The position numbers were made by a program, and so were the translations under genes. A model generated the notes under the pieces. The model saw nothing but the letters and a program-made list of their open reading frames with translations. It ran no database searches and was not told the DNA's origin. Of a stretch of 64,000 nucleotides of DNA, positions 2,140 through 4,702 are shown in pieces. Source of the DNA: an uncultured Pelagibacteraceae bacterium (GTDB lineage Bacteria > Pseudomonadota > Alphaproteobacteria > Pelagibacterales > Pelagibacteraceae); the NCBI GenBank assembly GCA_902563075.1, contig CACEWC010000001.1:1-64000 (forward strand). Direction: 5' to 3'. The number at the start of each line of letters is the position of its first letter. Within the stretch, counting starts at the first letter, position 1.

Positions 2140-2589
2140 ATGATACAAAAAATAAAAATTTTAAAAGCAATCATAATTATTTTTTCCTTAAGCTTAACTT
2201 TTTCTGCTAATGCTGAAACTGTAGAAGAAATTATTAAAGGCAGAAAAGCTTTATTCAGTAAGAATTATAGTACTGCAAAAAGAGTACAAGCTTTGGCTAG
2301 TAAAGGAGAATTTGATAAGGCAAAATCTTTGATGATCAAAATGAGTGAAAATTACAAAACTTTATTAGAATATTTTCCGGAAAATTCAAAAGAGGGTTTT
2401 GAAACTGAGGCTCTACCTTTAATCTGGGAAAATAAAAAAGAATTCAATGATTTAATGAAAAAATCATCAGATGATATGATTAAATTAACTTCACTAATTG
2501 AGGATTCTGAAGATATAAGAGCTACTTTAACTCAAATGATGTGGAGTAACTGTAAAGCTTGTCATAGTAGATTTAGAGCACCACATTAA
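2140..2589 (+). CDS. cytochrome c' family protein
   Basis: 149 aa. A signal peptide ends about SANA at 22-25, so the product is periplasmic. The only CxxCH heme-binding motif, CKACH, is at residues 138-142 close to the C-terminus, followed by a basic residue-rich tail; a helical bundle with a C-terminal heme site is the cytochrome c' architecture (five-coordinate heme, binds NO/CO, function often nitrosative-stress protection). Five bases downstream of the DUF411 gene. Its 3' flank runs directly into the structured intergenic island. Confidence 0.82.
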   Translation: MIQKIKILKAIIIIFSLSLTFSANAETVEEIIKGRKALFSKNYSTAKRVQALASKGEFDKAKSLMIKMSENYKTLLEYFPENSKEGFETEALPLIWENKKEFNDLMKKSSDDMIKLTSLIEDSEDIRATLTQMMWSNCKACHSRFRAPH

Positions 2590-2598
2590 ATTTTAAGA

Positions 2599-2700
2599 TT
2601 AAACGAAGGGGTTCGCTCTTTCGTTCTCCAACCAAAAGAGCTCCCCTTAGTCGCCTTTTTGGCATTTAAGTCCAAATGGACTTTTATTTTTTTCGTTTAT
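2599..2700 (+). ncRNA. candidate structured RNA / 3' UTR with outer stem and three hairpins
   Basis: Outer arms TAAACGAA (2600-2607) and TTCGTTTA (2692-2699) are perfectly complementary. Inside lie GGGG...GCTCTT (2608-2620) pairing with AAGAGC...CCCC (2636-2646), GCC-TTTTT-GGC (2653-2663), and AAGTCC-AAAT-GGACTT (2668-2683) followed by a T-rich run, which looks like an intrinsic terminator. The stretch is GC-richer than its surroundings. It begins 10 bases after the cytochrome c' stop, so it is either that operon's terminator region or a separate small RNA. No known RNA family recognised. Confidence 0.45.
2668..2692 (+). terminator. intrinsic terminator after cytochrome c' gene
   Basis: Perfect 6-bp stem AAGTCC/GGACTT with an AAAT loop, followed directly by TTATTTTTTT on the plus strand. 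It lies 79 bases after the cytochrome c' stop and closes the DUF411-cytochrome c' unit. It is also the 3' part of the larger foldable region described separately. Confidence 0.6.
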
Positions 2701-2790
2701 GTTTTTATGAAATATAAAGCTACCCAGCTAAGTGTCAGGTGGCATTTGATTCATTAAAACTACCTCCTTGTATAAAAAAGATAAATTTTA

Positions 2791-2855
2791 GACAGGTTGT
2801 ATTCAAGGAATATATTTAACAAAAATCAAAATTAATTTCTTGAATACAACCTGAC
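2791..2855. repeat. 21-bp inverted repeat around a 23-base loop
   Basis: The left arm (2791-2811, starting GACAGGTTGTATTCAAG) and the right arm (2835-2855) are complementary at 19 of 21 positions, with 15 consecutive perfect pairs in the core. Shorter flanking arms AAACTAC (2757-2763) and GTAGTTT (2862-2868) are also complementary and nested outside it. No T-run follows the right arm, so a simple terminator is unlikely. It could be a long RNA hairpin, a protein-binding palindrome or the remnant of a small element; I see no transposase or target duplication. Confidence 0.7.
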
Positions 2856-2907
2856 TCTTTTGTAGTTTCCCAGCATCAAAAAAATCTTCCCCTATAAATA
2901 GAAATTT

Positions 2908-2927
2908 AATTTGCATTCAAGCAAATT
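2908..2927. repeat. 7-bp inverted repeat upstream of small ORF
   Basis: AATTTGC (2908-2914), loop ATTCAA, GCAAATT (2921-2927), perfect. It sits 16 bases before the ATG of the 59-aa ORF and could be an operator or a leader hairpin. The loop and flank share ATTCAAG with the larger inverted repeat just upstream. Confidence 0.45.
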
Positions 2928-2943
2928 GTAGTTAAGATTAATT

Positions 2944-3123
2944 ATGAACTACTTAAGCGGACTTATAAATCTTGTAACCAGTTTAGTTATTTCAACTATA
3001 ATAATTTATGCAATAAATTTTATAGCGGGATTTGCTGGAGCTGATTATTCATTTACAAATGGCGAGGTATTTGTGATGTGGATTTTAATGGCAATTTTAG
3101 TGAATAATTGTTTTAGAAAATAA
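2944..3123 (+). CDS. small two-helix membrane protein (59 aa)
   Basis: Below the ORF track cut-off. Translation begins MNYLSGLINL and ends LVNNCFRK. Two hydrophobic segments (about residues 5-30 and 42-54) flank a short polar loop with DYSFTNGE, so it is probably a small inner-membrane protein. No family recognised. It stands alone between the hairpin island and the TPP riboswitch. Being the only open frame in the gap and having a sensible membrane layout supports it, but it could be spurious. Confidence 0.5.
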   Translation: MNYLSGLINLVTSLVISTIIIYAINFIAGFAGADYSFTNGEVFVMWILMAILVNNCFRK

Positions 3124-3183
3124 AAATTAAATTTCTAAACATTATTCTTCTTTTTTTTTAATAATATTAAAGTATTATATTTA

Positions 3184-3247
3184 AAGGGGTGTCTTTTTAG
3201 ACTGAGATTAAACCCTAAGAACCTGTCCGGTAATTCAGAAAGGGAAA
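3184..3247 (+). promoter_or_regulatory. TPP riboswitch (THI box)
   Basis: The stretch carries the conserved TPP aptamer boxes in order: GGGGTG (3186-3191), a perfect P3 stem GTCT-TTTT-AGAC (3191-3202), CTGAGA (3202-3207), ACCCT (3212-3216) that pairs with GGGG as P2, GAACCTG (3219-3225), and the closing AGGGA (3241-3245). It ends about 4 bases before the ATG of the SSS-family transporter, and the final purine-rich box is the only ribosome-binding-like sequence there. That layout suggests TPP binding blocks translation initiation. The distal arm (CTG/CAG) is short compared with the enterobacterial thiM aptamer. Confidence 0.9.
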
Positions 3248-3250
3248 TAA

Positions 3251-4702
3251 ATGTATAATTCTTTTTTTTTAGAACAATCCACTTCATTAATCTTAATAAT
3301 TGCAATCAGTTTGTTATTTGCTTTTTTGGGAATTAATCACACTAAAAAATTCAAAGGATTAAATAATTATTTAACTGCTAATAGGAATATTGGTGTCTTT
3401 TCATTAACCACCAGTTTAACAGCATCAGCATTAGGAGCTTGGATTTTATTTGGACCTGCATCTGCTGCGACTTGGGGAGGGATAGGTGCAGTTATTGGCT
3501 ATTCTTTAGGTACAGCTTTTCCACTATTTCTTTTAATTTACTTAGGAAAAAAAATTAGAAATGAATTCCCCAAAGGATCTTCTTTAATAGAATTTATGAG
3601 AAGAAAATTTGGTAAAAGTTTATTTAAGCTAATTTTGTTGATGACCATATTTTATATGTTCATTTTTTTGTGCGCTGAGGTAACCGCTATTTCAGTTTTG
3701 ATCAATTATATATCTGGCACTGAATTTTGGATTACAGCTTTAGTAGTTCTTTCGTCTACTCTAATTTATACTTTATATGGTGGATTAAAGGCTTCAATTT
3801 TTACTGATAATATTCAAATGATTGTTATAGGAGTTTTGTTATTTATCTCGTTTATTTATATTACTTCGTTTACAGGTTCTAAATTTTCTTTTGATTTTGT
3901 GTTAAAAAAAAAACCTCAACTTCTGAGTAGTCATTACATTCCAAATTATACTGCAGGCTTAACTTTTTTTATTGCAGTAGCCGCAACTAATTTATTCCAT
4001 CAAGGAAATTGGCAACGTGTGTATGCAGCTAAAAATTACCAAACTTTAAAAAAAAGCTTAATTATTTCTTTTTTAATTATAATTCCTATTGTTTTCTTTA
4101 TGGGTTTTTCAGGAATGGTAGCTTTCTCAATTGACCCTAGTACTAGACCAGATCTTGGATTTTTTTCATTATTACTTAAAGAGCAAACAATTTTTTTATC
4201 TTTATTTATAATTATACTGGGTATGGCATTAACAATTTCAACTGTAGACACATTAATTAATGCAATCTCAAGTTTGTTAATTTTAGATGGAAAAGCAGTA
4301 TTTAATTTGAGTAAAAAAACTAATTATTTAAACTTTTCTAAATATATAATTTTATTTTTATCGTTTATCTCTTTTATTATCGCATCAAAAGGATTTGATA
4401 TTTTGTATCTTTTTTTATTAGCAGACTTATTTTGTTGTGCTTTTGTTTTAACTGTTTTTCTAAGTTTTTATGATAAATCAATCAATGAAAATTTAGCTTA
4501 TTTTTCTATTTTGATTGGATTAATAGGTGGATTTTTACTGTTCCCTTCACCCGATTTCTCTAAAAGTTTATTAGTAGGAATTTTCATACCAATAGATTTA
4601 TTTCCATCTTTAGTTTCACAGTCTTTGCTTTTTTTATCTTTTATTGTAGCGACCTTTCTACCTTTGTTGATTATTAAAGCTAAAAAGCTTCATATAAGTT
4701 GA
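3251..4702 (+). CDS. thiV: ThiV-like sodium:solute symporter, TPP-riboswitch controlled
   Basis: 483 aa, about 13 predicted membrane helices, with the SSS-family (solute:sodium symporter) feel: N-terminal helix then an NYLTANRNIG segment and TASALGAWILFGPA. SSS permeases behind a TPP riboswitch in SAR11 are called ThiV and are the proposed importer of the thiamine pyrimidine precursor HMP, for which these cells are auxotrophic. The riboswitch ends directly before the start codon, so repression by TPP is expected. The exact substrate (HMP versus thiamine or a derivative) is inference from that context. Confidence 0.85.
   Translation: MYNSFFLEQSTSLILIIAISLLFAFLGINHTKKFKGLNNYLTANRNIGVFSLTTSLTASALGAWILFGPASAATWGGIGAVIGYSLGTAFPLFLLIYLGKKIRNEFPKGSSLIEFMRRKFGKSLFKLILLMTIFYMFIFLCAEVTAISVLINYISGTEFWITALVVLSSTLIYTLYGGLKASIFTDNIQMIVIGVLLFISFIYITSFTGSKFSFDFVLKKKPQLLSSHYIPNYTAGLTFFIAVAATNLFHQGNWQRVYAAKNYQTLKKSLIISFLIIIPIVFFMGFSGMVAFSIDPSTRPDLGFFSLLLKEQTIFLSLFIIILGMALTISTVDTLINAISSLLILDGKAVFNLSKKTNYLNFSKYIILFLSFISFIIASKGFDILYLFLLADLFCCAFVLTVFLSFYDKSINENLAYFSILIGLIGGFLLFPSPDFSKSLLVGIFIPIDLFPSLVSQSLLFLSFIVATFLPLLIIKAKKLHIS

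Follow-up and report, generated by a model that had tools for sequence, protein, structure and literature searches.

Introduction

Small RNAs that carry a short ORF, the dual-function RNAs, include SgrS/SgrT, Spot 42/SpfP, RNAIII and the alphaproteobacterial peTrpL. A predicted RNA gene of SAR11 bacteria resembles them in being stand-alone and in joining a structured part to a short ORF, whose translation is predicted here. It differs from them in an ORF of only 6-10 codons that sits right at the 5' end, in the near-fixed ending (P)P(D/E)(T/I)-stop, in hosts without Hfq and in having no Rfam match. The ribosome arrest peptides TnaC, SecM and the RAPP-type ApdP/ApcA form a second group of related systems. 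Like these, the mini-ORF combines a Pro-rich C-terminal motif beside the stop codon, a conserved end and a free N-terminus, but it is far shorter and has no downstream gene in cis. Structured intergenic RNAs of SAR11 were described earlier as the rhtB, pntA, babIM and SAR11_0636 elements, the last of which is thought to be separately transcribed (Meyer et al. 2009; PMC2704228). The present element shares the clade and the intergenic, structured character with these motifs, whereas its loci and neighbours are different.

The element lies in the intergenic island 2590-2943 of the window, the whole stretch of 64,000 nucleotides from an uncultured Pelagibacteraceae bacterium. Comparison with relatives indicates that it is more than a terminator, namely an undescribed stand-alone SAR11 gene for a small RNA, encoded by the minus strand. 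It is highly probable that this RNA gene is conserved and that its mini-ORF is translated.

The island and its flanks

The island is accompanied by the following features:
2140-2589, plus strand: cytochrome c' gene (PF01322, 74 bits), convergent neighbour, listed as context only
2944-3123, plus strand: 59-aa membrane-like ORF without a Pfam match
3175-3263, plus strand: TPP riboswitch RF00059 (49.1 bits; gathering score 54.3), directly 5' of the SSF/thiV-like transporter
3251-4702, plus strand: SSF transporter (thiV-like), flanking gene

An earlier note on this DNA had described a hairpin-dense island without a gene and with a first part richer in G and C than its neighbours. Positions 2590-2943 indeed lack a long ORF, and against a GC content of 0.30 for the window, 2600-2700 reaches 0.40 and 2606-2663 reaches 0.52. 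Folding of the island was more stable than that of dinucleotide shuffles (z = -7.0), and the segment 2597-2702 gave z = -4.8 on the plus strand and -5.9 on the minus strand. The note's title and coordinates were roughly right, while strand, parts list and mechanism needed revision. The thiV gene, named there as the flank on the other side, is separated from the island by the 59-aa ORF and the TPP riboswitch. This riboswitch, which escapes a plain gathering-threshold scan, is a structured RNA adjoining the island but a separate element of a known family. The 59-aa ORF adjoins the element in 102 loci.

Rfam 15 gave no match in the island at the gathering threshold; at relaxed E-values there were implausible microRNA, scaRNA and DUF2693-RNA matches, far below threshold. 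The element had no Rfam match in representatives of three genera either, and the scans otherwise returned the TPP riboswitch, tRNA and a glycine riboswitch, all elsewhere. A literature search found no description of the element.

Layout of the minus-strand gene

A promoter leads the conserved arrangement of the minus strand; AAGGAGGT and the ATG come next, then a few codons, CCACCTGAYACTTAG, the linker and the hairpins H1, H2 and H3:
2606-2771, minus strand: small RNA gene, predicted 5' end near 2771, three-hairpin module to 2606; covariance models R1-R3 match exactly here, and the gene is kept in 235 loci
2778-2806, minus strand: predicted sense promoter, -35 TTGAAT (2806-2801), 17 bp, -10 TATCTT (2783-2778)
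2762-2769, minus strand: Shine-Dalgarno (SD) sequence AAGGAGGT, near-invariant in alignment A1
2728-2754, minus strand: mini-ORF MNQMPPDT-stop, 8 residues, with frame and synonymous-change evidence
2668-2683, minus strand: hairpin H1 (AAGUCC-AUUU-GGACUU)
2653-2663, minus strand: hairpin H2 (GCC-AAAAA-GGC)
2606-2648, minus strand: hairpin H3 (AAGGGG-A-GCUCUUUUGGU ... AAAGAGC-GAA-CCCCUU), whose asymmetric internal loop is conserved
2840-2868, plus strand: predicted divergent promoter, -35 TTGAAT (2840-2845), 17 bp, -10 TAGTTT (2863-2868)
2792-2854, no strand assigned: palindrome GGTTGTATTCAA ... TTGAATACAACC, which takes in the two -35 boxes, separated by A/T-rich tracts

A transcription unit of its own is predicted from the convergent neighbours and from the sense promoter signature TTGA(A/T)N or TTGTAT, 16-17 bp, TAnnnT, present in 168 of 172 elements. 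The distance from the end of the -10 box to GGAGG is 7-15 nt, mostly 8-10, and the predicted start near 2771 lies a few bases 5' of the SD. The divergent promoter, TTGAAT (or TTGTAT) with a spacer of exactly 17 and TAnnnT, occurs in all 172 elements and is kept even where the gene beyond it changes or is absent; its product is not conserved. In the 102 loci where it adjoins the element, the 59-aa ORF is probably transcribed from it.

The inverted repeats named in the earlier note all exist in the letters; two of them are unconserved and a third is the promoter palindrome. The 21-bp repeat (2791-2855), read there as a hairpin, keeps its pairing in only 9 of 49 homologues, one half-site being nearly invariant, and each arm is the -35 box of one of the two back-to-back promoters. 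Judged from this pattern, the palindrome acts as a promoter/operator region at the level of DNA and does not form an RNA hairpin. Of 49 homologues, 5 retain the outer stem TAAACGAA/TTCGTTTA, correctly placed at 2600-2607/2692-2699, and 3 retain the 7-bp hairpin at 2908-2927; both were rejected as parts of the element. The note's three inner hairpins are conserved, and it had missed the minus-strand SD and mini-ORF (2728-2769), the most conserved part.

The mini-ORF

The 183 distinct elements encode 39 distinct peptides of 6-10 residues with the pattern M-x(1-6)-(P)P-[DE]-[TI]-stop. The SD precedes the ATG by 0-11 nt, mostly by 3, 5 or 8. The frame is open from ATG to stop in all 183 and varies in length by whole codons; part of this set was found by a pattern requiring the frame, and the mini-ORF is also present in 49 of 49 loci of the first set, which was selected by DNA homology. 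Changes in the last five codons are nearly all synonymous (CCA/CCG, CCT/CCA, GAC/GAT/GAA, ACT/ACA and TAG/TAA/TGA), with an ATT codon in four members of one sister genus. In the two sister genera the sequence is altered and the plan unchanged, the frames being MSPPET-TGA and MSPPEI-TAA, so that an exchange of D for E is kept across genera together with a different stop codon. This comparative evidence for translation is strong.

Residues of the arrest-peptide type, PP(D/E)(T/I)-stop, end the frame over three genera, with a few LPDT exceptions (two single-proline forms). It is conceivable that the peptide itself is the product; the RNA would then be the mRNA of a micro-peptide that acts in trans through its PP(D/E)T C-terminus, and the hairpins would serve as a stabilising 3' UTR. 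The conservation of the C-terminus at the residue level, including the D/E exchange that goes with another stop codon, would agree with such a role, which we nevertheless consider unlikely: the N-terminal part varies freely in sequence and length among the 39 peptides, and the hairpin covariation in three genera exceeds the need of a plain 3' UTR. A type I toxin-antitoxin system, in which a minus-strand toxin mRNA is overlapped by an antisense RNA, would account for a possible sequestration of the SD and for overlapping convergent transcripts. It is very improbable for a peptide of 6-10 residues that has no hydrophobic helix, and with a convergent partner that is another protein gene from one lineage to the next.

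RNAalifold proposed pairing of the SD with the Pro codons. A switch of this kind is offered as a suggestion, since these pairs hardly vary and the SD stays open when a single sequence is folded.

Covariation of the three hairpins

A covariance search across relatives, the check named in the earlier note, bore out the three inner hairpins, each with compensatory changes. H1 showed such changes in 5 of 6 pairs and was paired in 98%; H3 (helices 4 and 5) had double changes in 8 of 14 pairs and was 95-97% paired; the short H2, with 91% of its cells paired, has GCG/CGC and GUC/GAC versions in relatives. The signal comes mainly from H1 and H3. Evaluated as a fixed structure, the 44 sequences from within the genus had 96% of cells paired and double changes in 15 of 29 pairs, values equalled by 0 of 500 shuffles and compared with 34-61% pairing in slid controls, and the three-genus set of 18 sequences had double changes in 18 of 29 pairs and beat all 500 shuffles and the slid controls, although both alignments were fitted to the model and therefore lean towards structure.

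The strand is suggested by the exceptions to Watson-Crick pairing. Read on the minus strand, these are G-U in 43 and A-C in 8 cases (24:7 without one SD pair), counts that come from related sequences and hence do not represent independent events. The minus strand is favoured because the exceptions are mostly G-U on that strand. A plus-strand RNA with the anti-Shine-Dalgarno sequence ACCUCCUU, comparable to the alphaproteobacterial cuckoo (CCUCC-motif) RNAs, would explain the conservation of ACCTCCTT on the plus strand; we give it hardly any credence, as this asymmetry, the codon-like change and the promoter-SD spacing favour the minus strand and the motif lies outside the hairpin loops on the plus strand.

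The antisense of H1 with its T-run (2668-2693, plus strand) is the sole terminator-like site found on that strand. Read in this direction, the stem is followed by a U-tract, with U5 or more in 91 of 140 elements, a form in which H1 resembles an intrinsic terminator that would serve the convergent gene. An ordinary spacer, composed of the terminator of the left-hand plus-strand gene and divergent promoters, would fit this site and the left gene, which nearly always points into the island. Such a spacer is nonetheless a rather remote explanation, since a terminator needs neither an SD nor a mini-ORF with almost only synonymous change, and the compensatory change in H2 and H3 and the G-U bias on the other strand are not needed for it. 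The roles of H1 as a plus-strand terminator and as part of a minus-strand RNA gene can coexist. In the sense RNA, no consistent U-tract follows H3, the sequence there being T-rich in 44 of 164 elements.

Distribution and genomic context

A DNA search of 200 relatives gave matches in 70 genomes, one locus each, about 45 of which extended over most of the element; the alignment comprised 49 loci from this first DNA-based set. A pattern search in genome contigs added about 80 loci, all labelled Pelagibacteraceae (or Pelagibacterales/Pelagibacter). Covariance model R1 located the element in 79 of 197 genomes of the order and in 77 of 149 of high quality, in single copy each, 75 of these genomes belonging to the window's genus and 4 to a sister genus, and R2 gained the third genus. 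A class-wide search with R2 matched 3 of 289 genomes, all Pelagibacteraceae. The element is present in about half of the good-quality Pelagibacter genomes; even a lax search gave no match in G207, G215 and G218, for example. With about half of the genus lacking it, an essential role is disfavoured. A multi-copy or mobile element was rejected given the one copy per genome; a second match in the window's own genome was a 67-nt A/T-rich stretch inside an ORF. Viral contigs searched with the mini-ORF pattern contained no copy, thus giving no sign of phage carriage.

Genome G205 is taken here to be HTCC1062, and its match on contig 1 (762690-762861) agrees in coordinates with the HTCC1062 gap 762678-763012, within which it falls. 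Table 1 of Meyer et al. (2009) lists this 335-bp gap without an RNA; it had 76 BLAST hits, below their 200-hit cut (PMC2704228).

R3 also gave two weak matches from another family of the order, L240 and L241 (E 5e-4 and 0.04). An SD and CCACCA occur in both, with no suitable ATG-to-stop frame and another fold; they were left out of the element counts. Their gaps, L240 1501-1641 (minus strand) and L241 1501-1643 (plus strand), are related, share GTGGAGGTTAAAAAGTTGA..CCACCA and have flanking inverted repeats TCCACGTTATCAT/ATGATAACGTGGA, a terminator and no match in Rfam. They look like a different undescribed structured RNA. A sister-genus genome carries a glycine-GGAnGA riboswitch (RF03166, 69.4 bits, below the gathering score) at L221 9331-9486 (plus strand).

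In 222 of 225 loci the gene downstream of the element runs towards it; these downstream genes represent 17 unrelated families and mostly end 104-140 nt past the stop codon of the mini-ORF; in g32 and one g34 genome the translation of the downstream sequence reads as folD. Upstream neighbours come from 19 families and lie on either strand. The element has the layout typical of a leader, with hairpins behind a short ORF driven by an SD, and a leader-peptide attenuator would sense a metabolite or the translation state and control a downstream gene in cis. With all downstream genes of these unrelated families on the opposite strand, apart from three loci with a same-strand ORF at 204-415 nt, this reading is scarcely tenable. 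The convergent, changing downstream genes thus point to a free-standing RNA that is no leader and has no cis target.

Discussion

Conservation, covariation, independence of context and the lack of an Rfam family together support the island as an RNA gene. The reading of the earlier note, an unrecognised structured or small RNA, was supported in part, its strand emphasis being wrong. RNA gene, strand, mini-ORF, hairpins and lack of a cis target are all backed by comparison, and the element is probably a regulatory RNA whose fate is set by ribosomes translating its tiny frame. The best explanation as a whole, which we hold to be moderately probable, is a free-standing minus-strand small RNA with a mini-ORF and a trans-acting module coupled to a ribosome pause.

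The transcript predicted from the element's own promoter would start almost at the SD, so that ribosomes would load at the 5' end and translate the peptide M-x(n)-(P)P-(D/E)-(T/I) of 6-10 residues, while the RNA runs on into the three-hairpin module. A ribosome may pause at Pro-Pro-Asp/Glu, to be relieved by elongation factor P (EF-P), or at the stop codon two codons on, and once parked there it could govern the stability or the exposure of the module, which would act in trans without Hfq. Ribosome profiling of E. coli cells lacking EF-P placed PPD and PPE among the EF-P-dependent pauses (PMC4140641). The D/E exchange, which swaps two pause-prone residues, fits a pause function. We accordingly propose that the three-hairpin module, acting in trans, has its fate decided by a ribosome held near the start of the RNA. 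The single-proline LPDT forms count against a Pro-Pro pause. Among six Pelagibacteraceae genomes (G000, G205, G206, G012, G213, G200), EF-P was found in all six and Hfq (PF17209) in none, while positive-control genomes gave Hfq matches. No conserved single-stranded seed was apparent in the element, and no target was found. The pause mechanism, whose transcription, translation, pausing and trans action we infer, is put forward tentatively. Somewhat more speculative is the idea that the 8-codon Pro-Pro-Asp/Glu frame might be a built-in gauge of polyproline translation, be it EF-P activity or general ribosome speed, that switches a trans-acting module without Hfq. If true, cells devoid of Hfq would control a small RNA through the translation of a Pro-Pro-Asp/Glu frame of minimal size.

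Tiny ORFs of this kind can escape gene callers and RNA searches alike. SAR11 bacteria belong to the most numerous cells of the sea, and their genomes carry almost no non-coding DNA; an RNA of 170 nt that many lineages keep beside changing neighbours is therefore probably useful, and the element offers a testable entry to regulation in streamlined genomes.
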